From contig CAIMFY010000017.1 in NCBI GenBank assembly GCA_903840415.1, positions 1-64,000 on the forward strand: 64,000 bases of DNA, in the 5' to 3' direction. This DNA is from an uncultured Opitutia bacterium (lineage in GTDB: Bacteria > Verrucomicrobiota > Verrucomicrobiia > Opitutales > Opitutaceae). The translations under genes were made by a program, and so were the position numbers. Below, one piece after another: positions 32,304 to 45,505 of this stretch; positions within the stretch are counted from its first letter, which is position 1; every line of letters begins with the position of its first letter. A model generated the notes under the pieces. That model was not told where the DNA came from. It saw nothing but the letters and a program-made list of their open reading frames with translations, and did not search any database.

Positions 32304-34526
32304 TCAGAGCGCGTGTTCGAGCGTCAGATAGGCCACCGGGCCGTGATAGTTGGCAAAACCGCCCGTCGTATCGTTCCTACTGTTGAAGTAGCCGATTTTC
32401 CCGCTGGCGATCCATTTGTCGGAAAACTTGCGCTTGAGGCCGACCGTGACGGATGAATCCTGCACGTTGACGCCAAAGGGCATCGTAGTCGTCGCTAGGA
32501 ACGCATTGCCGTTGTTAGCGCGATAATAGTTCAATTGCACCTGTGCATCGGTGTCCTTGTCCACCACGAATCCTGCCAGCAGGCTGCCGGTCACGTAGTT
32601 ATTATTGGAGTTTTGGACGACCTTGTTCGTATCCCACGCGTTGGCCGTGGCGGTCGCAGGTGTCCATCCGGCGCGAGGGTAAACCGTGCTGATGACATTG
32701 TAGGTCGCGTTGGCATTCAACTGCACGTAACACGACTTGTCCGGGGTCCAGTCGATGGTCTCGCCGATCATGTAGTTCTTGCCATCGAGCGAATCGTTGG
32801 CCGGGAAGGTGGGCAGAAAGCCCGTGACCTGCATCGTGCTGCGCTGATCGATGAATCGCGTGGTGAAGCTGACGACCGCGTTGGGCTTGGCGATTGCAGT
32901 GAGTTTGTAACCCTTGCTCTGCGAATCGAGCAGGTAGTAATCGCCGACGCGGGTCCCAAAGCCGACGCTGCCGTCCTTGTGGCCTTTGTCGAAGGCCTCC
33001 GCCCGCAGCGACAGCTGTGGCGATACTTTCCAGTTAGCGCCGAGGGAATAGTCGCCGTGTTTCTCGGAGACGTTATTGTTGGCAATCGTGCCGTTAGCGG
33101 CCGTCAGCGTATTGAAGGCCGAGGAGTTGTTCTCGGTGCCGTCCAAGCTGCGTTTGCTGCCGGTGAAGTAGAGCGACAGATTTTTGATTCCGGTGTAGCG
33201 CAGTTCGGCGACCGGGGTTTGCGTCTGCTGGTCGATCTTCGAATAGGCCAGACGTGGTGTGGTCGCGAGGGTAACGGTCGGAGGAACCACGGTTGTGCCA
33301 ACAGTGGCCGCAACGACTGAGTAAGTGCTCGAGCCGCGCACATATTCATCCTGATCGCGGAAGCCAATCTTCACGGAGAGATCCTTGCTGGCTTTGTAGG
33401 TTAGGGAGGCATTGCCCACGTAGTTTTTGATGCGAGAGCCACCCGCCAAACCGGTGAAAGTGGCGGTGGAAACCGCCAGAGCACCACTTGAGGTTGGTGT
33501 CGCAGTGATCGTCGGGCGATTGCCTGTGAGGTCGCCGTGCAACAGTTCGTAAGTGCCACCGAGATGGAAGCTCAGCTTGTCAGTCAGCGCGGTGTCCGAA
33601 TTGAAGGTCGCACCCGTTGTCTGGGTCGCAATGCCATCGGACTGGGCGAACCATGCCTGATTATTCCAATTGGCGGCACCCACCGCCGCCTTCGCAGCGG
33701 GCTGAGCGGCCGTCGCGAGACCGGCAATCGACCAAGGGATGACTGCGCCAGGAAAATTCGTGAAGTAGCGCGTATCGAGATTTTTGGTCCGATCCCCGAG
33801 GAGCGTGAATTGCACCTCCGTCTTTCCGATTTTGTGCCGCAGTTCGAGTTCCAAGTTTTCATGCCGCTCCCCAAGTTGGAGATAGCTAGGCGTGCCCTTT
33901 CGCGTTTGCGTGATGGGATTGGGCGCGACGGTGAAGGGCAGACCGGTGAGGTCAGATGAACCCCAGATGGTTGAGTCCTTCCGGCCGGAGCGGAGTTCGT
34001 TCGTATAGCGAACTGTGACTTCTGGCATGTCTTTGAGAGCCAATTTGCCCTCAATCCAGAATTTGCTGCGATCGACGTGCAGGTCCTCCTGCGTCAGCGG
34101 CAGCCACTGGTTACTGAGCGGGAAAAAGCCGCCGGCACCGTCATAGAAAGTGCGGAAACGCTTATAACCCGCATCAATGGAACCGACCTCGCTCTTGGTG
34201 ACGTTGAGGTGAGCGAGATAGTCCTCGCTCCCGGCCAGCGCTTTGCCGTCAAAGACGACCGTGGTGGTTTTCGAGACATCCTTCGACAGATGGAGTTCTT
34301 CGATTCCCACGCCGCCGTCAGAGGGTTGCTTGGTGCGATTCTGAAATGCGGCCTTGTCGCCAGTGATGGCCCCAGCCTGTCCCGTAATCTTGATATAGCT
34401 TTCGTAAGTCGGAAATGCATCCGACTCTGCTTTGTCCGCAGCGCGGGCCGGAAGACCGGCGCAGAGGAGCAGGGACCCGGTAAGGAGTCCGGCACTGCGA
34501 ATGGTGGCAAAAATCTTTGTGTTCAT
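32304..34526 (-). CDS. MtrB/PioB-like outer-membrane beta-barrel protein
   Basis: About 740 residues from the ATG at 34526 (signal peptide MNTKIFATIRSAGLLTGSLL ending ARA); ATGs at 34535 or 34577 would add a few residues, the latter overlapping the upstream gene. The chain is a long run of amphipathic beta-strands (ELELRHKIGKTEVQFTLLGD, KDLSVKIGFRDQDEYVRGSS) ending in a barrel-like strand VAYLTLEHAL. It resembles the decaheme-associated porins that sheath a multiheme cytochrome across the outer membrane. It follows the octaheme lipoprotein gene by 16 bases, which matches the porin-cytochrome arrangement. It lacks the CxxC sometimes seen near the N-terminus of MtrB. Confidence 0.8.
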   Translation of the reverse strand: MNTKIFATIRSAGLLTGSLLLCAGLPARAADKAESDAFPTYESYIKITGQAGAITGDKAAFQNRTKQPSDGGVGIEELHLSKDVSKTTTVVFDGKALAGSEDYLAHLNVTKSEVGSIDAGYKRFRTFYDGAGGFFPLSNQWLPLTQEDLHVDRSKFWIEGKLALKDMPEVTVRYTNELRSGRKDSTIWGSSDLTGLPFTVAPNPITQTRKGTPSYLQLGERHENLELELRHKIGKTEVQFTLLGDRTKNLDTRYFTNFPGAVIPWSIAGLATAAQPAAKAAVGAANWNNQAWFAQSDGIATQTTGATFNSDTALTDKLSFHLGGTYELLHGDLTGNRPTITATPTSSGALAVSTATFTGLAGGSRIKNYVGNASLTYKASKDLSVKIGFRDQDEYVRGSSTYSVVAATVGTTVVPPTVTLATTPRLAYSKIDQQTQTPVAELRYTGIKNLSLYFTGSKRSLDGTENNSSAFNTLTAANGTIANNNVSEKHGDYSLGANWKVSPQLSLRAEAFDKGHKDGSVGFGTRVGDYYLLDSQSKGYKLTAIAKPNAVVSFTTRFIDQRSTMQVTGFLPTFPANDSLDGKNYMIGETIDWTPDKSCYVQLNANATYNVISTVYPRAGWTPATATANAWDTNKVVQNSNNNYVTGSLLAGFVVDKDTDAQVQLNYYRANNGNAFLATTTMPFGVNVQDSSVTVGLKRKFSDKWIASGKIGYFNSRNDTTGGFANYHGPVAYLTLEHAL

Positions 34527-34542
34527 GGCGTGCATGGTGCGG

Positions 34543-35334
34543 TCAATAGCGGAAGTGGTTGTTGGCGTTGGAACCATGCGGCGCCTCGTGGCAACTAGCG
34601 CTCCAGCATGTGCCCTGCATTAGACGCGCGTTGTGGTTCTGCGCACTAGGATTGATGGCGTTGGCGTTGATTACGCCGCCACCGGTGCTCTCAAGATGGC
34701 AGCGCAGGCAGAGATTCGCGTCGCGAGCGACGAGCATCTTCTGATTGATTGTGCCATGGGGATTGTGACAGGAGACACAGCCTTCACGCAACGCCGCGTG
34801 CTCGTAAACAAACGGACCTTTCTGCTGCGTATGGCACTTGGTGCATGTGGCATTCTGGCCCTCTAGATCGGTGCCGGTGCCGGCGACCGCATTGCCGCTG
34901 TGCAACTCATGGCAGTCAGCGCAACTCATCTTGCCGTGCATCACGTCATGGCTGTTCGGCAGGCTGAACTGGGCGCGTTTGTCGAGATGGCACTGGAAGC
35001 ATGTCTCGGGCGACTTACGCGGATTAATGATAGTAGCCTTGCTGCCGCCGACAGCAACGTGAAGGCTGCCGGGCCCGTGGCAGGCTTCGCAACCAGTGTC
35101 ACCGACTTTCGCATCGGCTAGCGCCAGCTTGGCATGGCTCGCAGTCGCGAAGTGATCGGTTTGGTCGGTGTGGCATTGCGCGCACTCCTTCGAACCAACG
35201 AATTTCGCGCCGGCGATTTGCGGCGGCGCGACCATCGTGCGATTGGCGGCTACACATCCGATCAGCACGATGCCCCACAGGGCCGTGCCTCCGAAAATGA
35301 GCGTGGATTTATTCCAGCGAGGACAGGTGATCAT
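34543..35334 (-). CDS. Octaheme c-type cytochrome lipoprotein
   Basis: 263 residues. The N-terminus ends in a lipobox-like VLIGCVAAN, so it is probably lipid-anchored in the periplasm or outer membrane. Seven CxxCH motifs are visible (CAQCH, CEACH, CFQCH, CADCH, CTKCH, CVSCH, CLRCH) plus one CX4CH, CWSASCH, giving eight potential c hemes. The order and spacing resemble the DmsE/MtrA-type periplasmic cytochromes, which are longer and decaheme. It is the first gene of a two-gene operon with the MtrB-like barrel and should carry electrons to or through it. Confidence 0.88.
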   Translation of the reverse strand: MITCPRWNKSTLIFGGTALWGIVLIGCVAANRTMVAPPQIAGAKFVGSKECAQCHTDQTDHFATASHAKLALADAKVGDTGCEACHGPGSLHVAVGGSKATIINPRKSPETCFQCHLDKRAQFSLPNSHDVMHGKMSCADCHELHSGNAVAGTGTDLEGQNATCTKCHTQQKGPFVYEHAALREGCVSCHNPHGTINQKMLVARDANLCLRCHLESTGGGVINANAINPSAQNHNARLMQGTCWSASCHEAPHGSNANNHFRY

Positions 35335-35667: not shown

Positions 35668-35997
35668 ATGAAATCATCCCATCGCCTCCTCGCTCTTGCT
35701 GCCGCCTTCGCCACGCTCACGGCGTTTGGCGCCGACGCCGCCACCAACTGGACCGATCAATGCGCCAAGTGCCATGGCGCTGACGGCAAAGGTGAAACGA
35801 AAATGGGCAAGAAGCTTGGTATCCTCGATCTCACGGACGCGAAAGTGCAGGCCAGCTTCACCGACGAAGCTGCATTCAAAGCCGTCAAAGAGGGTATCAA
35901 AGACAAGAACGACAAGGTCACGATGAAACCGATCGAGGGTCTGACCGACGACGAAATCAAGGCACTCATCCCCGTCGTCCGCGCTCTCAAGAAATAA
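35668..35997 (+). CDS. Small periplasmic monoheme cytochrome c (class I)
   Basis: 109 residues: signal peptide to about residue 24 (AFGADA), heme motif QCAKCHGADGKG, and a candidate Met axial ligand in KVTMKPIEGL. The length and C-terminal helix (DDEIKALIPVVRALKK) fit a soluble electron shuttle. It is the first gene of a rightward series that continues with the tetraheme protein, Fe-S protein and NrfD-like subunit. A close paralogue is encoded at 51916-52251, at the other end of the cytochrome block. Confidence 0.93.
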   Translation: MKSSHRLLALAAAFATLTAFGADAATNWTDQCAKCHGADGKGETKMGKKLGILDLTDAKVQASFTDEAAFKAVKEGIKDKNDKVTMKPIEGLTDDEIKALIPVVRALKK

Positions 35998-36022: not shown

Positions 36023-36694
36023 ATGGAAACTCTCCCGCCCTCAGCGCCCGCGAGCAAAATTGCCCGCACCAATATTTTTCTCGCGGGCCTCACGCTGGGG
36101 TTCCTCGCACTCGCGGCCCTCTTCACGAAAAATCTCTGGGGTCACCTGCCCACCAAGCAGACGATTCCGATCGTCGACAAGAAATTCCTTGAGACGACAC
36201 CGTGGCGCCAGACCTACGCCGATCTCGTCAAGGCGAAGGAAGATCTTTCCGACTACGACTGCTACGGCTGCCACGAGAAAAAGAAACCGCCGACCATCCG
36301 CTACGACGCGAATCAAAAAATCGTCGTGCCGAAGGAACATTCCGACGTAGTAATGGGCCACGGTTCGCATGATCGAAACAACCTCTGCTACAACTGCCAC
36401 AACGAACAGAATCTCGCTACGCTCCAAATTCGCGACGGAACCGAGGTGAAGTTCGACAACATCCCGCCACTGTGCGGAAGTTGTCATGGTCCGACTTATC
36501 GTGATTGGGAAGCCGGCGCACATGGCCGCACCAGCGGCTTCTGGGATCGCAGCAAAGGTGAGATCACACGCTTGAGCTGCGCGAACTGCCACAATCCCCA
36601 TTCACCGCGAATTCCCACGCGCGAACCAGCGCCAGGTCCGCACTCGCTGCGTGCCACGACGACAGTCCACGAATCCGCCGAATCTTCACACTGA
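36023..36694 (+). CDS. Membrane-anchored tetraheme cytochrome c
   Basis: 223 residues with an uncleaved-looking N-terminal anchor (NIFLAGLTLGFLALAALF, about 17-34) and a periplasmic domain holding four CxxCH motifs: CYGCH, CYNCH, CGSCH and CANCH. Extra His residues (GHGSHDRNN, GAHGRTSGFWD) probably serve as axial ligands. It is followed after one base by the Fe-S subunit gene, so it is likely the cytochrome subunit of a quinone-linked complex, comparable in layout to the NrfD-containing Cbc complexes of Geobacter or to DsrJ in DsrMKJOP. No molybdopterin catalytic subunit is encoded nearby. Confidence 0.88.
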   Translation: METLPPSAPASKIARTNIFLAGLTLGFLALAALFTKNLWGHLPTKQTIPIVDKKFLETTPWRQTYADLVKAKEDLSDYDCYGCHEKKKPPTIRYDANQKIVVPKEHSDVVMGHGSHDRNNLCYNCHNEQNLATLQIRDGTEVKFDNIPPLCGSCHGPTYRDWEAGAHGRTSGFWDRSKGEITRLSCANCHNPHSPRIPTREPAPGPHSLRATTTVHESAESSH

Positions 36695-36695
36695 C

Positions 36696-37640
36696 ATGCC
36701 CCTTCCCGATTCCACGACCGACAAGACTTCCGACGCCGCGATGTCGCGCCGCAGTTTTCTCCGCGGCAGCGCGGCCCTCGGCGGACTCACCGCCCTAGCC
36801 GCCAGCCTTTCGCCCCTGCGTGAACTGCACGACTTCACAAACACAGAACAGTTCCTCCAAAAATATTACAAGGAGCTGACTCCGGACGAGATGACCAAGG
36901 TGCTCAAACGCATCGAAGGTGAGGTCGAAAAACAATATGGCGTGCGCCCGCACGTCCGTGATCTCCGGCCGATGGATGGCGTCGAATATGTCTACTGCCT
37001 GAATCTCACCCGCTGCATTGGTTGCCGCAAGTGCGTCCACGCCTGCGTCAACGAAAACAACCAGTCGCGCAATCCCGAGATCCAATACATCCGCGTCTTG
37101 AAAATGCCGCACGGCTCGATGGATGTTGAGAAAGGCGACCATACTTACGACGCGAAACAGGTGCCAGAAAAGGGCTTCTTTTACATGCCGATTCAGTGTC
37201 AGCAGTGCCACAATCCGCCGTGCGTGAAAGTCTGCCCCGTCAACGCCACTTGGCAAGAGAAGGACGGCATCACGGTCATCGATTACGACTGGTGCATCGG
37301 CTGCCGCTACTGTGAGGCGGCGTGTCCTTATTGGGCGCGGCGCTTTAATTGGACGAAGCCCGAAATTCCGAAGGAACGCCTCAATTCCAATATGGCCTAT
37401 CTCGGCAATCGCCCGCGCAAGCAGGGCGTGATGGAAAAGTGCCACTTCTGCATCCAGCGCACCCGTGCTGGGAGATATCCCGCGTGCCTTGAGGTCTGTC
37501 CCGTCGGCGCACGGAAGTTCGGCAACATTCTCGATCCGGAGAGCGAAGTTTCCTACATTCTCCGCGAAAAACGTGTCTTCATCCAGCTGAAGGAAGAAAT
37601 GGGCACGTCACCCCGGTTCTTTTACTATTTCGACAAATGA
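36696..37640 (+). CDS. Tat-exported four-cluster Fe-S electron-transfer subunit
   Basis: 314 residues from the ATG at 36696. The twin-arginine signal SRRSFLRGSAALGGLTALAA places it in the periplasm. Four cysteine groups are visible: CIGCRKCVHAC, CQQCHNPPCVKVCP, CIGCRYCEAACP and CHFC...CLEVCP, as in the NrfC/TtrB/DsrO/HybA family, predicting four [4Fe-4S] clusters. Its stop overlaps the start of the NrfD-like gene (ATGA), a sign of a tightly coupled complex. It should pass electrons between the quinone-site membrane subunit and the tetraheme cytochrome. Confidence 0.93.
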   Translation: MPLPDSTTDKTSDAAMSRRSFLRGSAALGGLTALAASLSPLRELHDFTNTEQFLQKYYKELTPDEMTKVLKRIEGEVEKQYGVRPHVRDLRPMDGVEYVYCLNLTRCIGCRKCVHACVNENNQSRNPEIQYIRVLKMPHGSMDVEKGDHTYDAKQVPEKGFFYMPIQCQQCHNPPCVKVCPVNATWQEKDGITVIDYDWCIGCRYCEAACPYWARRFNWTKPEIPKERLNSNMAYLGNRPRKQGVMEKCHFCIQRTRAGRYPACLEVCPVGARKFGNILDPESEVSYILREKRVFIQLKEEMGTSPRFFYYFDK

Positions 37641-39346
37641 TCACCGCGACCCGCAACTATCTCGTGTTTATTCAGCGGTGCGCGCGCATCGCGTTCGTGG
37701 GCGACTGGCGCTATTATGCCTGGATGGGCTTGCTCACTGCAATCGCCCTGCTCGGGCTCAACGCTTACACCAAGCAGTTTGTCCACGGCCTCGTCGTCAC
37801 GGGCATGAGTGATGAAGTGTCGTGGGGTGTCTATATCGCCAATTTTACCTTCCTCGTCGGTGTAGCCGCAGCCGCGGTGATGATGGTCATCCCGGTCTAC
37901 ATCTACGACAACGAAGAATTGCACGACTTGGTCATCTTCGGCGAATTGCTCGCCGTCGCGGCAATCATCATGTGCTTGCTCTTTGTGACCGTCGATCTAG
38001 GCCGACCTGATCGGTTCTGGCATCTCATCCCCGGCATCGGGCAAATGAACTTCCCGAAATCAATGCTGAGTTGGGACGTGCTCGTGCTCAACGGCTACCT
38101 GCTGTTGAACGTTCACATCTGCGGCTACCTTCTGTATTGTCGCTACCAAAAAAGAAAGCCAGCAAAGTGGTTCTACATTCCATTTGTTTTTCTCGCGATT
38201 GTCTGGGCCATTTCCATTCACACCGTGACGGCATTCCTCTATGTCGGCCTCGGTGGCCGACCGTTTTGGAACGCCTCCATCGTCGGCCCGCGCTTCCTCG
38301 CTTCCGCATTCACTGCCGGCCCCGCGATCATTATTTTAGCGTTGCAGGTAATCCGTCGAGTGACCGCGTCGGGCTCCGCCTCAGAATTGAAAGGTGGCAT
38401 TGATGTCGGCGACAAACCTGGTCGGCCCGCCACCCTCGCCGATCTGGCCCAGCTTGAGCGCGAACTGCCAGAAATGGCGGCGGTCTCAGCCGGCGACCGA
38501 TTGCGCGCCTTGGTCGGTGCCTCGGTCATCGAGGTCGAACGGGGCGACGTGCTGCTCCGCCAGGGCACAATATCTCCCTTTGCGTATTTCGTCCTGCAAG
38601 GTCACGTGGTCGTTAAGCGTGATGAAAATGGCCGCGCCCGCATCACCCGGACTGCGCGGCCCGGCGACCAATTTGGCGAGGTTTCTGCGCTACACGGCAC
38701 GCCACGCGTGGCAACGGCCATCGCCGAGGAAAATTCCGTGATTTTGCGCCTGCCCGGAACGTCATTGCGGGTGCTGCTCGAAGCTCAGGAGATGCATCAA
38801 GTGGTGCATCAACGCATGACCGAACGACTCTTGATCACCGACCGCAGCCTGCTCGTCCTCCGCGGCATCGTGCAGGTTTCGATGATCATCAATGTCTTCC
38901 TGCTCGTGTGCGAAGTGTTCAAGGAATTTTACTCCGGCACAACGCATAGCGCTTCCGCCAAATATCTCTTTGTCGGCCTGCACGGTCACTACGCTCTCGT
39001 GCCGTGGATTTGGACCGCCATCGCCTTTAATCTCATCGCCATGGTGCTACTGGTTTTGCCTCTCAGCCGCGGCCTAAAATATTTAAACATCGCCTGCGTT
39101 CTCGCCATCGTCGGCATTTGGATCGAAAAGGGGATGGGCCTCGTCATTCCAGGATTTATCCCGACGCCGCTCGGTGCTATCGTCGACTACCTGCCCTCGA
39201 TCAACGAAACCCTTGTGTGCCTCGGCATCTGGGCCTTTGGCCTCCTGTGCTACACAATCTTTCTGCGCATGTCCGTGCCGATCCTACAGGGCCGGATGAC
39301 GAAAGCCAACGAAAGCAGGTATAAACTTCAGGGCGACGAAATCTGA
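37637..39346 (+). CDS. NrfD/PsrC-like membrane subunit with inserted cyclic-nucleotide-binding domain
   Basis: 569 residues. Membrane segments occupy about residues 27-240 and 405-546, and the NrfD signature VTVDLGRPDRFWHLI supports a menaquinone-reactive PsrC/NrfD subunit. Between the sixth and seventh segments sits an extra domain of about 120 residues (285-400, bases near 38489-38836). It has the cAMP/cGMP-binding fold pattern: GDVLLRQGTISPFAYFVLQG, then FGEVSALHGTPRVATA. Glu348 and Arg357 match the ribose- and phosphate-contacting residues of competent cyclic-nucleotide sites. Ordinary NrfD proteins are about 300-450 residues and lack this. The insert may let a second messenger gate quinone oxidation; that is inference. 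Confidence 0.9.
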   Translation: MITATRNYLVFIQRCARIAFVGDWRYYAWMGLLTAIALLGLNAYTKQFVHGLVVTGMSDEVSWGVYIANFTFLVGVAAAAVMMVIPVYIYDNEELHDLVIFGELLAVAAIIMCLLFVTVDLGRPDRFWHLIPGIGQMNFPKSMLSWDVLVLNGYLLLNVHICGYLLYCRYQKRKPAKWFYIPFVFLAIVWAISIHTVTAFLYVGLGGRPFWNASIVGPRFLASAFTAGPAIIILALQVIRRVTASGSASELKGGIDVGDKPGRPATLADLAQLERELPEMAAVSAGDRLRALVGASVIEVERGDVLLRQGTISPFAYFVLQGHVVVKRDENGRARITRTARPGDQFGEVSALHGTPRVATAIAEENSVILRLPGTSLRVLLEAQEMHQVVHQRMTERLLITDRSLLVLRGIVQVSMIINVFLLVCEVFKEFYSGTTHSASAKYLFVGLHGHYALVPWIWTAIAFNLIAMVLLVLPLSRGLKYLNIACVLAIVGIWIEKGMGLVIPGFIPTPLGAIVDYLPSINETLVCLGIWAFGLLCYTIFLRMSVPILQGRMTKANESRYKLQGDEI

Positions 39347-39397: not shown

Positions 39398-39907
39398 ATG
39401 ACCAAGATTCTCACCGCTGAAGACGCCCGGCAATCGCTCACCGCGCATGTCGAGGCGAAGGGCATCGAGGTATTCGCTATATACGGCCCGCAATTTGGCT
39501 GGAACGAATTGCAACGCCTGCTCACCGACCGCGTCTTCGTGCGTTATCCGTGCGACATTGTCTTTGACGCGGAGCAACTACTCCCCGGCGAATTCGCGCA
39601 TCCCGTGCAAAAAGGAGAGCGCCCCGAGGCGGGCTTCACGATGGCCGTGCATCCAGTCTTCATGGTGCAACGCGATTTGGTTCCAGCGCTCGTGCTTTAC
39701 CAACTTGTCGCAGTCAACTACGGCGAATTTGCTTCCGCCGATGAAGCGGAGACCTTTGGTGCCGCTGCACTCGGTTTAACCCGTGACGAATATTACGCCC
39801 TGCTCTGTGATGCCGCCGATCAACTCGGCACTGGACTCGAGATGGCTGAACCAGAAATGAGCACACCGTCAAGCGGTTGCGGCGGCGGTAGCTGTGGCTG
39901 CGGTTGA
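39398..39907 (+). CDS. Hypothetical protein with Cys-Gly-rich C-terminal tail
   Basis: 169 residues, no signal peptide or membrane segment. The body is mixed alpha/beta (EVFAIYGPQFGWNELQRLL, GFTMAVHPVFMVQRDLVPAL). The last twelve residues are Cys- and Gly-rich, SSGCGGGSCGCG, with three cysteines that could bind a metal or be a maturation handle. I do not recognise the family. It follows the NrfD-like subunit by 51 bases on the same strand and may assist assembly of that complex. Confidence 0.65.
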   Translation: MTKILTAEDARQSLTAHVEAKGIEVFAIYGPQFGWNELQRLLTDRVFVRYPCDIVFDAEQLLPGEFAHPVQKGERPEAGFTMAVHPVFMVQRDLVPALVLYQLVAVNYGEFASADEAETFGAAALGLTRDEYYALLCDAADQLGTGLEMAEPEMSTPSSGCGGGSCGCG

Positions 39908-41750: not shown

Positions 41751-43064
41751 TTAGCCACTCGCGACGCCGACCGAAGTCACCGTCGCGAGAGGTAGAGCCG
41801 CGTTCTCAGCCTGCACATGAGCGCGCATCGCATCGCGGTAATCATTCACCGATTCGAAAAACTCCGACATCATCAGCATCAAAAAATACATCCCACGCTC
41901 TGTGAGCCGCCATCCTCGGGCGTCGGTCGTGACCGCGCCCACCGCCGTCAATGCGGCCAACTCTGGCCACACGGTGCGAAAGAAGATTGGACCATAGTGC
42001 GCCTTGGTGGCGCTCCGATCTAGTCCGAGTCCAAACATGCGGACCAAGAGTCCGTAACGCATCTGATCGCTCGGACTCAGCCGGTGACGAGTCACGATCC
42101 CGGTTTGCCCACGCGCAATTCGCCGGGAATACGTCGGGAGTGAAAACGTGGTCGCGTAGAGCGTGCCATCGAGATAACTGAATGCCCCGCTGCCCACGCC
42201 GACGTAGTGCTCCGCGGCTACGATATATTCGTCACTACCCCTGCCGCCCCGCGTAAAACACCAAGCCGAGGTCGGCGCGAATTTCGGCTGTAGCCGGCGC
42301 AAAATCGTTCGATAAAATTCCCGCAACCGGCTCGGTTCGGGCGCGCCCATCGTCTCTGCCATCCGCCGCATCACAGTCGGCGACACCATCAGCGGATAAC
42401 ACGACACTTGGTCCACTCCGATCGAATCCACGAGTTCGAGATCGCGCTCGAGCGAAGCGAGCGACTGGCGCGGTTGGTTGAAAATGAGATCGACATTAAG
42501 CGTCGGGAAGATTCCCGCGGCCGCCTTAAGTTGTTCGGTGATTTCGGCGGCACTGCCGTATTTATCATAGCGCTCCATCGCACGGAGTAGATTGTCGTCG
42601 AAACTCTGCACACCGACAGACAGCCGCGTGACACCAGCGGCACGCAGCTCGGCAAGAAACGCCGGTCGCAATTCGCGCGGATTAGTTTCCACCGAAATGT
42701 CAGAAACCTTGAACAACTCGCGCACGAGACCGATGGTCACGAGCAGTTCGTCTGGCTCGATCGTCGGCGTGCCACCGCCAAAATAAACGCCCGAAAACTT
42801 AAAGCCCGCCCCGTGGTAGCGCCGGATCTCATCGCGCAACGCTACAAAATAGCGCGAGGCGGCGGCGTGACAGTGTTGCACGCGGTGAAAGGAACAAAAC
42901 GGACACAATACTTCACAAAAGGGAATATGGACGTAGAGGTGGCAACTGCCGGAACGAGGCACCGCAGGCACATCACCGACAGCATCTTCCATCCGTAAAA
43001 ACCCGCGGGTGCGAAAACGGAAGGCCTGAATCAAAAGTGAATCGACGAACGTGAAATCGAACAT
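41751..43064 (-). CDS. HemN/HemW-like radical SAM enzyme
   Basis: 437 residues from the ATG at 43064 (MFDFTFVD); the frame is open to 43133. The radical SAM motif is CEVLCPFCSF (CxxxCxxC) preceded by HLYVHIPF. GVYFGGGTPTIEPDELL, SVETNPRELRP and SVGVQSFDDNLLRAM are standard for coproporphyrinogen-dehydrogenase-like proteins. A C-terminal HemN-type domain is present. The cysteine pattern ends in Phe, like HemW-type heme chaperones, rather than in Cys as in classical HemN. It may insert or process heme for the many cytochromes around it; alternatively it is another oxidoreductase of the family. Confidence 0.8.
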   Translation of the reverse strand: MFDFTFVDSLLIQAFRFRTRGFLRMEDAVGDVPAVPRSGSCHLYVHIPFCEVLCPFCSFHRVQHCHAAASRYFVALRDEIRRYHGAGFKFSGVYFGGGTPTIEPDELLVTIGLVRELFKVSDISVETNPRELRPAFLAELRAAGVTRLSVGVQSFDDNLLRAMERYDKYGSAAEITEQLKAAAGIFPTLNVDLIFNQPRQSLASLERDLELVDSIGVDQVSCYPLMVSPTVMRRMAETMGAPEPSRLREFYRTILRRLQPKFAPTSAWCFTRGGRGSDEYIVAAEHYVGVGSGAFSYLDGTLYATTFSLPTYSRRIARGQTGIVTRHRLSPSDQMRYGLLVRMFGLGLDRSATKAHYGPIFFRTVWPELAALTAVGAVTTDARGWRLTERGMYFLMLMMSEFFESVNDYRDAMRAHVQAENAALPLATVTSVGVASG

Positions 43065-43246
43065 ACGGCGCCGCTTTGGCCGGCCGGCCGAGTATAGCTC
43101 GCCAGTGTTTCGAAGGCTACTGACGGATTGCACGACGCTCCGCGTTTCTTGCAGAGAGCGAGCGGCAAGATGTGCCCACGATTCGTCAAGCGATGCGATG
43201 CTGGATCGTGACCATGCGTTAAGATGAACCCATCAACACCACGCCC

Positions 43247-45505
43247 ATGCCAACACGAAGGTTGGTTCTCCTCGTGCAACGCCGTTTTCCCCTCGACCGA
43301 CTCATACGGAGTCAGTGCCGCTGGCATATAGCGCTGACCTTGGCGGCCGGTTTCGCCTTGGCCGGCTCGGCTGGCGCCCAGCCCGCGAAACCCTCGGCAC
43401 CAGTGCTCAACTCCACCGCCGCGTGCCTCGAATGCCATGGCGATGCCACACTCGCGACCAAAAAGGATGGCAAGAAAGTGTCGCTTTTCGTCGATCCAAA
43501 AATCGGCGCCAAGTCCGCGCACCGTTCACTTGAGTGCATCGACTGCCACGAGAAATTCGACGGCGACAGCTTGCCGCACCGCACGCCGCTGGTCGCGGTT
43601 GATTGTGTTTCGTGTCACGAAGACACCGCGAAAAAGCACGCGTTTCACCCGCGTCTCGCACAAAAACCGATACCGGTCGGCCAAGACACCGCCTGCACCG
43701 CATGCCACGGCCAACACGACATCGCGCCCGTGAAGAGCACCGCGTTTGCGTTCAACGACGGCCCGCAGGCTGACTCCTGTGGCAAATGTCACGCGACGGC
43801 CCGCGACCATTTCGCGGCCTCCGCCCATGGTCGTGCGTTTGCGGCGAAGCAGGCCAACGCTCCTGACTGCCTTTCTTGCCATCGTGTCGCCGTCGTCGCC
43901 ATCGCTCCCGCCCAGCTCACCCTGGAGCAGAAGCTCACCCAGACAAAACAGTGCGAGGCCTGCCACGTCGGCCAAGAGAACGTCGCCGGCCATGCGTTGC
44001 GCGGAGCAAAGTTCGTCGGATCTTTCGATCAAAGCGTGCACGGCGCCGCTCTGCTTGGGGGTAAAATTGGCGCGGCCAATTGCATCGATTGCCACGGTGC
44101 ACACGAGATGAACCGCGCGATGGCCGCCAGCGCAAAGGTCAACAAACTCCACGTCGCTGATACCTGCGCGAAGTGCCACGAAAAAATCGCCACGGAATTC
44201 GGGGCCAGCGTGCATGCCGCCGCGTTGCGCAAGGGCAACATGGATTCCGCCGTGTGCACCGACTGCCACGGCGAGCATGACATCCGGAAACACACCGACC
44301 CGTCCTCGCCGGTGAGCGCAAAAAATGTGGCGCAGGAAGTCTGCGCCAATTGCCACGCCTCGCTTCGGCTCACCCAAAAATACGGGCTACCCTCGAAATC
44401 ATTTCAGACATTTACCGACAGCTACCACGGACTCGCCGTCCGCGGTGGCGCGGTCGAAGTCGTCAATTGCGCGAGCTGCCACAGCTCCCATGCGATCAAG
44501 TCCCAGAAAGATCCTACGTCGACGATCCATGTCTCAAATCTTGTGCAGACCTGCGGTCAGTGTCATCCGGGGGCCAACACCCGCTTCGCCGTCGGCAAGG
44601 TCCACGTCAGCCCCGAGGCCGCGCAGGGCGCCGATGGCAACAGCCCTATCCTTTATCTCATCTCCAGCCTCTATGTGATCCTGATCGTCGCCGTCGTCGG
44701 CGGCATGGCCGCTCATAACGCACTCGATTTCCTGAAGAAAATCCGCCGCAAACTCGCGATTCAAAAGGGCCTCGTTGAGGAACCGCACGTCGCGCATCGA
44801 CTCTATCTGCGCATGACGGTGCATGAACGTTGTCAACACGCCGTGCTCATGCTCAGCTTCACGCTGCTCGTGGTCACTGGCTTCGCGCTGCGTTATCCCG
44901 AAGCCTGGTGGGTGGTCGGACTGCGCAACCTCAGTGTGCGCGCCTTCGAGTGGCGCGGCTGGATGCACCGTATCGCGGGGGTCGTGATGCTCGCGTCAGG
45001 CCTGTGGCACTTCTGCTACCTCGCCTTCACCCAGTCCGGTCGCGCGCTCTTTCGCGACCTCCTCCCCCGCTGGCGCGATGTCACCGATCCGTTGGCGGTG
45101 GTGAAATATAATCTCGGCCTCGCGCCGACGAAGCCTGCATTCGATCGATTCTGTTACATTGAAAAAGCCGAATATTGGGCCATGATGTGGGGCACGATCC
45201 TCATGGGCCTCACCGGTGCCATCCTCTGGTTTGAAAATACCTCCATCGGACTTTTTACCAAGCTGGGGTTCGACATTTCGCGCACTGTCCACTTCTACGA
45301 GGCGATTCTGGCGACCCTCGCGATCATCGTCTGGCACTTTTACTTCGTGATATTCAATCCCGACGTTTATCCGATGAGCCTCGCCTGGCTCACGGGCCGG
45401 ATGTCGGAGGGTGAAATGCTGGAGGAACACCCCCTCCAACTCGCGCAACTAAAGGCCAAAGCGGACCAACCCACGCCTCCCTCCGAGCCGCTTCCGCCAA
45501 AATAA
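43247..45505 (+). CDS. CbcL-like fusion: 13 c-type heme motifs plus cytochrome b membrane domain
   Basis: 752 residues with an N-terminal signal or anchor (HIALTLAAGFALAGSAGAQ). Thirteen CxxCH motifs span about residues 60-460 (CLECH, CIDCH, CVSCH, CTACH, CGKCH, CLSCH, CEACH, CIDCH, CAKCH, CTDCH, CANCH, CASCH, CGQCH). The C-terminal 270 residues hold about five membrane segments with histidines placed for two b hemes (HERCQHAVLML, MHRIAGVVMLASGLWHF, VHFYEAILATLAIIVWHF), as in FdnI/HydC-type cytochromes b. Geobacter CbcL has the same c-plus-b design with fewer c hemes and oxidises menaquinol for metal reduction. This protein likely does the same, feeding periplasmic cytochromes. Confidence 0.92.
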   Translation: MPTRRLVLLVQRRFPLDRLIRSQCRWHIALTLAAGFALAGSAGAQPAKPSAPVLNSTAACLECHGDATLATKKDGKKVSLFVDPKIGAKSAHRSLECIDCHEKFDGDSLPHRTPLVAVDCVSCHEDTAKKHAFHPRLAQKPIPVGQDTACTACHGQHDIAPVKSTAFAFNDGPQADSCGKCHATARDHFAASAHGRAFAAKQANAPDCLSCHRVAVVAIAPAQLTLEQKLTQTKQCEACHVGQENVAGHALRGAKFVGSFDQSVHGAALLGGKIGAANCIDCHGAHEMNRAMAASAKVNKLHVADTCAKCHEKIATEFGASVHAAALRKGNMDSAVCTDCHGEHDIRKHTDPSSPVSAKNVAQEVCANCHASLRLTQKYGLPSKSFQTFTDSYHGLAVRGGAVEVVNCASCHSSHAIKSQKDPTSTIHVSNLVQTCGQCHPGANTRFAVGKVHVSPEAAQGADGNSPILYLISSLYVILIVAVVGGMAAHNALDFLKKIRRKLAIQKGLVEEPHVAHRLYLRMTVHERCQHAVLMLSFTLLVVTGFALRYPEAWWVVGLRNLSVRAFEWRGWMHRIAGVVMLASGLWHFCYLAFTQSGRALFRDLLPRWRDVTDPLAVVKYNLGLAPTKPAFDRFCYIEKAEYWAMMWGTILMGLTGAILWFENTSIGLFTKLGFDISRTVHFYEAILATLAIIVWHFYFVIFNPDVYPMSLAWLTGRMSEGEMLEEHPLQLAQLKAKADQPTPPSEPLPPK

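Follow-up and report, generated by a model that had tools for sequence, protein, structure and literature searches.

A cyclic-nucleotide-binding domain within an NrfD-family subunit

The window analysed here is a 64,000-nucleotide stretch of contig CAIMFY010000017.1 (GenBank assembly GCA_903840415.1), from an uncultured Opitutia bacterium of the Verrucomicrobiota. On its forward strand it contains a gene (37637..39346) for a 569-amino-acid (aa) DsrP-type NrfD protein in which a cyclic-nucleotide-binding domain (CNBD) is inserted between two membrane helices. The ATG start codon overlaps the TGA stop codon of the upstream iron-sulfur (Fe-S) protein gene (ATGA). The translated open reading frame (ORF) was matched by Pfam NrfD over residues 54-246 (E 6.4e-38) and by Pfam cNMP_binding over residues 299-382 (E 2.4e-19, 69.5 bits against a cut-off of 27.5), and the NCBIfam DsrP model (NF045798) scored it at 410 bits against a cut-off of 350, in two stretches. 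The DsrP model was also matched at E <= 1e-20 by 89/89 members of protein set A2. In the predicted structure, residues 1-243 (37637..38365) form helices 1-6, equivalent to transmembrane helix (TMH) A and TMH1-5 in NrfD numbering, and residues 399-569 (38831..39346) form helices 7-10. Between helix 6 (216-242) and helix 7 (402-432) sits an insert of 155 aa (residues 244-398; 38366..38830), delimited by alignments and a same-genus DNA comparison and missing from insert-free orthologues. The CNBD occupies residues 263-395 of it (~133 aa; 38423..38821), as judged from AlphaFold2 confidence and the fold match to the CNBD of MloK1 with cyclic GMP (cGMP). The original prediction, made from the sequence of the window, had described a CNBD of ~120 residues from position 38489 between the sixth and seventh membrane segments of an NrfD-type protein. 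The single-ORF architecture was borne out by the significant matches to both families (PF03916 and PF00027) and by its recurrence in relatives, and the placement between helices 6 and 7 stood, but the extent had to be revised to the longer domain and insert given above.

A ligand-free AlphaFold2 model, built with 89 window and locus sequences, had ten membrane helices, a mean predicted local distance difference test (pLDDT) score of 85.2 and a predicted template modelling score of 0.85, with block means of pLDDT of 85-98 over residues 261-390 of the CNBD. In fold comparisons with VIA-align, the CNBD of MloK1 with cGMP (Z 16.7, 2.2 Å over 126 residues) and Rv0998 with cyclic AMP (cAMP; Z 16.6) tied as closest to the window CNBD, and the domains of PKA, PKG, HCN and SthK followed at Z ~15. 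The membrane body was closest to four ActC chains (Z 30.9-33.3; best 6btm_C, Z 33.3, 3.2 Å over 366 residues). The sequence match, together with the ten helices, two four-helix bundles and ActC-like fold predicted by the model, places the protein in the NrfD superfamily. The membrane body also resembles cytochrome bd oxidase subunits (Z ~18-22, ~310 residues, 7-9% identity), which rank below the ActC chains, and this likeness was much the same with the model of an insert-free control orthologue. In that control model (mean pLDDT 78.7; Z 33.3 to the same ActC chain) the corresponding helices span residues 216-242 and 249-279 and are joined by 6 residues, in line with the earlier expectation that NrfD proteins normally have a short loop there. 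Once 153 is added, the control helix ends coincide with 216-242 and 402-432 of the inserted form; the graft therefore appears to leave the membrane bundle alone.

Likely quinone-site residues were found in the first part of the membrane body (37637..38365). S142 and D147 align with ActC S164 and D169, and D120 with H139, in a visual reading of the 6f0k_C alignment; Y66 was assigned to the site by spacing only. All four residues, together with E497-K498 in the second part of the membrane body, are identical in 87/87 rows of the alignment described below. A review of the NrfD family assigns a periplasmic half-channel to TMH5-8 and locates in TMH8 a gate residue that is Arg, or Lys in DsrP1 (PMC8076601); K498, in the motif IWIEKGMG, is likely the equivalent of this residue. 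The review also places both termini of ActC and ActF in the cytoplasm and the quinone site of ActC on the periplasmic side (PMC8076601). Loops on the same membrane face as the N-terminus and insert carry a mean of ~21 Lys plus Arg, with the CNBD excluded, versus 7 on the other side. The Fe-S partner has a start resembling a twin-arginine translocation (Tat) signal (SRRSFLRG; Pfam TAT_signal 21.7 bits, just under the cut-off of 22.7). The loop charges, the ActC termini and quinone site, and this Tat-like start together indicate that the sensor most likely lies in the cytoplasm, across the membrane from the quinone site, where a turn joins the NrfD core helices TMH5 and TMH6. An intact pocket facing the cytoplasm, on which the earlier prediction depended, was thus supported as to its facing by loop charges, ActC termini and model topology. 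As to the pocket itself, the CNBD fold and cassette residues are kept in the ligand-free model, which suggests that it is intact.

Distribution, conservation and history of the insert

A search of 115 genomes, comprising that of the window and its nearest relatives, found the gene in 28, of which 13 have the inserted form (one split over two contigs) and 15 the insert-free form only. A wider genome scan, which used two search peptides and kept the best 80 of 567 relatives, gave 49 inserted and 31 insert-free loci. Over 110 proteins, the site holds 152-163 residues in 61 and exactly 2 in 47; the two exceptions, with 85 and 0 residues, are contig-end fragments. In nine of the 61 inserted proteins the flanks duplicate those of another row, in most cases because one genome is represented twice. 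For trees and conservation, an 87-row set of 49 inserted and 38 insert-free proteins was obtained from the 110 by omitting nine truncated rows (L015, L031, L078, L079, L080, L084, L087, L099 and L109), five proteins of the insert-free branch that is most distant (L025 and L027-L030), and the nine duplicates, all inserted. This set differs from the 49 inserted and 31 insert-free loci, which are the 80 wider-scan loci with fragments and duplicates kept.

The record titles name mostly Verrucomicrobia lineages, including Opitutae, Limisphaerales, Akkermansiaceae and Pedosphaera, and three give only "bacterium". Two contigs (L068 and L069) are titled Klebsiella pneumoniae and Proteobacteria; their proteins nest among Verrucomicrobiota rows, and these metagenome-bin labels are probably wrong. 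Within the 80 loci kept in the wider scan, inserted proteins with 65% identity were placed ahead of insert-free ones with 90%. Similarly close inserted proteins of other phyla would probably have surfaced if they carried a search peptide, and distant ones could escape. The evidence is drawn almost wholly from Verrucomicrobiota, and other phyla are barely covered. In a sample of the phylum, the gene was present at E <= 1e-40 in 18/387 genomes, 5 of them with the insert. Four plasmid records matched, none over 80% of the query.

Both forms occur within each of four genera (g16, g17, g37 and g38). In one same-genus comparison, an inserted (G248) and an insert-free (G070) genome share the operon and 87% DNA identity directly flanking the site, which measures 480 bp in the former versus 9 bp in the latter. 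Compared with the window protein, that of G070 has an identity of 93% over residues 1-243 and of 86% over residues 399-568. The CNBD can be present or absent in proteins that are nearly identical elsewhere; the original prediction had foreseen neither this nor the likely link to extracellular electron transfer. Relative to G070, G248 also has ~5.9 kb of extra DNA (L113 4479-10394) separating nrfD from the 169-aa ORF that follows it; one more cytochrome c is encoded there.

The phosphate-binding cassette FGEVSALHGTPRVAT (residues 346-360; 38672..38716) contains the Glu and Arg that had been predicted to contact the nucleotide, as FGE and R (E348 and R357). In alignments its counterparts are the PKG and Epac cassettes, and PKA regulatory subunits are among the best sequence matches. 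G310, G322, G343, F346, G347, E348, S350 and R357 are identical in 49/49 inserted proteins, as are M394, R397 and L398 at the end of the insert; 12 of the 49 come from the nearest-relative genomes and span 11 genera. The mean majority fraction across CNBD residues 263-345 is 0.69. In ten pairs hand-picked among near neighbours, the ratio of nonsynonymous to synonymous substitution rates (dN/dS) of the insert was 0.10-0.33 in 10/10, as under purifying selection, although dS was near saturation and the ratios are rough. Taken together, these alignments indicate that the CNBD pocket is under selection. Because the best matches are mononucleotide sites of the PKA, PKG, Epac and MloK1 type, a mononucleotide ligand is favoured, and a cyclic dinucleotide, which the original prediction had also allowed, is unlikely. 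The residue after the cassette Arg, which we take to be the selector between cAMP and cGMP, is M in 16 of the 49 proteins, T in 12, V in 9, A in 5, L in 3, Q in 2 and others in 2, so that the ligand cannot be named from it. As this residue is other than Thr in 37/49, cAMP may be offered as a guess.

Trees were built on the membrane body without the insert. In the 87-row tree, whose bootstrap had yet to converge and which had six flagged long end branches, presence of the insert needs 10 changes, at least 6 of them forced by well-supported branches, and the label is clustered (0/500 shuffles as low); an initial tree of 28 rows required 4 changes, of which at least 3 were forced. A single clade of inserted proteins with one vertical origin was rejected by the approximately unbiased test (p 1.16e-8) on 15 inserted versus 15 insert-free rows, hand-picked from the 87 with mixed-form neighbours over-represented; in this 30-row tree, well-supported branches force only 2 changes, and 128/500 shuffles were as low as the 9 observed. 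At the junction, insert-free proteins have Tyr in 37/38 (His in the other) versus Leu in 49/49 inserted proteins, and a further junction residue is mostly Arg or His in the former versus Met or Leu in the latter. These differences make plain deletion, even if repeated, an unlikely origin of the insert-free proteins that branch among inserted ones; recombination that exchanged alleles, or gain on several occasions, would fit the compared sequences better. Segment-wise identities gave no clean recombination breakpoint around the insert, and no terminal repeats or mobile-element marks were seen by eye at the insert ends in the inspected junctions. Base composition gave mixed signals as to a foreign origin of the insert: its GC content is 62.8% versus ~55% in the flanking gene parts, but its third-position GC is lower (67.1 versus ~73.5%).

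Operon partners and genome context

Directly upstream on the forward strand, and overlapping the nrfD start, lies the gene for the Fe-S partner (36651..37640), a DsrO/QrcC-like protein with matches to Pfam Fer4 families and an NCBIfam DsrO score of 165.6 bits, below the cut-off of 200. It is preceded by genes for a multihaem cytochrome c with four CXXCH motifs (36023..36694), probably membrane-anchored as judged from an N-terminal hydrophobic stretch, and for a monohaem cytochrome c (35668..35997; Pfam Cytochrom_C, one CXXCH). The 169-aa ORF directly after nrfD (39398..39907, forward strand) ends in CGGGSCGCG and recurs across loci; it had no Pfam or NCBIfam match and is possibly a metal-binding accessory protein. 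Cytochrome c, 4-CXXCH cytochrome, Fe-S protein, NrfD protein and 169-aa ORF recur together in both forms. Counted as any similar sequence in the fetched flanks, with adjacency not required and some loci cut by contig ends, the 4-CXXCH cytochrome was found in 47/49 inserted and 29/31 insert-free loci, the Fe-S protein in 47/49 and 30/31, and the 169-aa ORF in 44/49 and 25/31. A partner specific to the inserted form was looked for among ten window neighbours and none was found: nine were about as frequent in inserted as in insert-free loci, and an LpxD-like gene is in neither form's loci.

On the reverse strand, a divergent gene (34543..35334) encodes a GSU2203/DmsE-like cytochrome with seven CXXCH motifs, whose NCBIfam scores of 171 and 147 bits are under the cut-offs of 325 and 192. 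Beside it, also on the reverse strand, a 757-aa protein (32304..34577) without a Pfam or NCBIfam family match is proposed to be the outer-membrane porin of a porin-cytochrome pair, from this neighbour and from clusters described in Verrucomicrobia (PMC5615132); its relatives were present in the fetched flanks of 20/49 inserted and 13/31 insert-free loci. In this window, electrons are probably passed on to such a conduit for extracellular electron transfer. Further downstream on the forward strand, a domain and motif search found a CbcL-like protein of 752 aa (43247..45505) in which a cytochrome c with 13 CXXCH motifs is fused to a C-terminal cytochrome b561, a layout as described for the CbcL/MtrH/MtoC quinone modules of extracellular electron transfer and a second quinone module near the NrfD operon. 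A HemN-like radical SAM protein (41751-43133, reverse strand; NCBIfam PRK08629, 413 bits against a cut-off of 355) is encoded beside the cytochrome genes.

The genome of the window has seven class III cyclase-like domains and six CNBD places, including the nrfD insert, and one other NrfD protein. Class III cyclase domains were found in 20/20 genomes searched of the 28 with the gene. The DsrMKJOP complex of sulfate reduction acts with DsrAB and DsrC; neither dsrA nor a DsrC family hit was found in this 98%-complete genome, where the dsrA search lacked a positive control (the control genomes held none over the cut-off) and DsrM and DsrK were not searched. Since neither was found, the locus is probably not part of a sulfite-reduction complex.

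Proposed control of quinol oxidation and its alternatives

The architecture and partners described above suggest, at somewhat better than even odds, that a DsrJOP/ActC-like quinol:cytochrome c oxidoreductase of Verrucomicrobiota (Opitutae and relatives) has this protein, with its grafted-in sensor, as its membrane quinone subunit. Quinol would be oxidised at the periplasmic face and electrons would pass to the Fe-S protein and then to the multihaem cytochromes. The cyclic-mononucleotide sensor would act from the turn that links helix 6 to helix 7 in the cytoplasm (TMH5 to TMH6 in NrfD numbering): class III cyclases of the cell would supply cAMP, or cGMP, which would bind the cassette around E348 and R357, and the CNBD C-helix (384-395) would close on binding. 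Since this helix ends six residues from helix 7 in the model, and since M394, R397 and L398 are invariant, its movement could reach helix 7 and then the second four-helix bundle, with the proposed periplasmic half-channel and K498 gate position. A shift there may raise or lower coupled quinol oxidation, through coupled proton and electron transfer rather than quinone docking. An empty CNBD acts as a brake in MloK1 and HCN channels, and by analogy may do so here. The second messenger would act on the enzyme itself rather than on transcription, the level at which bacterial cAMP control of anaerobic and extracellular respiration has been described (CRP). We put the probability of cyclic-nucleotide control of a quinol:cytochrome oxidoreductase, probably serving extracellular electron transfer, at roughly 60%. 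The chances are about even for the stronger proposal of a probably proton-coupled quinol oxidoreductase under direct allosteric cAMP/cGMP control, with bacteria trading a plug-in throttle on (extracellular) respiration.

Several observations weigh against this control. The linker ahead of the CNBD is poorly conserved (0.34), which makes coupling via that side doubtful, and within the CNBD the model has its lowest confidence at the proposed joint on the other side (residues 391-400, pLDDT 71). The quinone site lies across the membrane from the sensor, and loop 87-98, supposedly cytoplasmic, is acidic rather than basic. The insert has diverged more quickly than the membrane body (median end branch 0.26 versus 0.10; dN 0.08-0.35 versus 0.013-0.09 in the ten chosen pairs) and has been gained, lost or swapped repeatedly, so that it is dispensable on evolutionary time. 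The position taken as the ligand selector varies. The operon partners are the same with and without the insert, and cyclases are also present in all 7 searched genomes with the insert-free form only, so that they do not discriminate between the forms.

Some of these points would also suit a CNBD with a cyclic nucleotide as ligand but with a role in assembly, in clustering or in recruiting a cytoplasmic partner instead of in catalysis. A compact module on a cytoplasmic turn, behind a poorly conserved linker, could have such a role, the membrane bundle is unaltered by it in the models, and 47/110 related proteins do without it. The short distance from C-helix to helix 7, and the three residues kept there in 49/49 proteins, look more like a mechanical joint, and we regard this alternative as unlikely, though it is the most plausible of the rivals. 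Slightly less credence is given to a CNBD that senses another small molecule, such as haem, 2-oxoglutarate or nucleosides, or that has become a ligand-free structural part. Some domains of the FNR/CRP family sense haem or 2-oxoglutarate, so CNBD-fold sensors with other ligands exist, and the fold matches include DNR and the cAMP-independent PKA of trypanosomes. Against these stand the cassette Glu, Arg and glycines, invariant in 49/49, the best sequence matches to PKG, PKA and Epac, and the best folds, which are MloK1 with cGMP and Rv0998 with cAMP.

A passive, selectively neutral passenger would be in keeping with the patchy distribution, but is very improbable given the dN/dS of 0.10-0.33 in all ten pairs, the invariant pocket, and an insert of 152-163 residues at the same alignment place in 61/110 proteins (nine with duplicate flanks). 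An assembly or chance artefact was rejected on the same position and length and on purifying selection, and is refuted by the many independent records. Control by a cyclic nucleotide remains the preferred reading. A sensor within the quinone subunit would, if real, allow a second messenger to set electron flow immediately. The NrfD-family review proposes NrfD-like subunits as ion-translocating modules common to many respiratory complexes (PMC8076601). The question of coupling is directly testable, because natural near-isogenic proteins exist with and without the switchable domain on the TMH5-TMH6 turn.

The protein is of a known kind, an NrfD/DsrP subunit, here with a CNBD graft, and is not a new fold or system. 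It resembles DsrP of DsrMKJOP and other NrfD subunits in its match to the DsrP model, its ten helices, its likely quinone-site and gate residues, and its pairing with a DsrO-like Fe-S protein and a multihaem cytochrome; it differs from DsrP systems in its 155-residue insert and in a genome without a dsrA or DsrC family hit. The accessible text of the NrfD-family review mentions no regulatory domain and lacks the terms "fused", "fusion" and "regulat-" (PMC8076601). ActC of alternative complex III, the best fold match of the membrane body, belongs to a different operon from the one seen here. To our knowledge, ActC has no CNBD. A cytoplasmic CNBD joined to membrane helices is shared with MloK1, SthK, HCN and CNG channels and SLC9C1. 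In cyclic-nucleotide-gated channels and SLC9C1 the CNBD is C-terminal to the membrane part and gates ion flow or exchange, whereas the window CNBD is spliced between the helices of a quinone oxidoreductase subunit. SLC9C1 is described as a gated exchanger (PMC6052114). No description of an NrfD/DsrP-CNBD fusion was found in the accessible open-licence literature, where the nearest case was a CNBD protein encoded beside a group 3b hydrogenase in R. equi (PMC13332983); unlike in the window, that CNBD is a separate polypeptide of a hydrogenase cluster. Clusters of porin and multihaem cytochrome genes have been proposed to serve extracellular electron transfer in Verrucomicrobia of a humic bog, in a paper whose main text contains no occurrence of NrfD, quinol or cyclic (PMC5615132). 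The window resembles these freshwater clusters, within the same phylum, in having a porin-like gene with a multihaem cytochrome.

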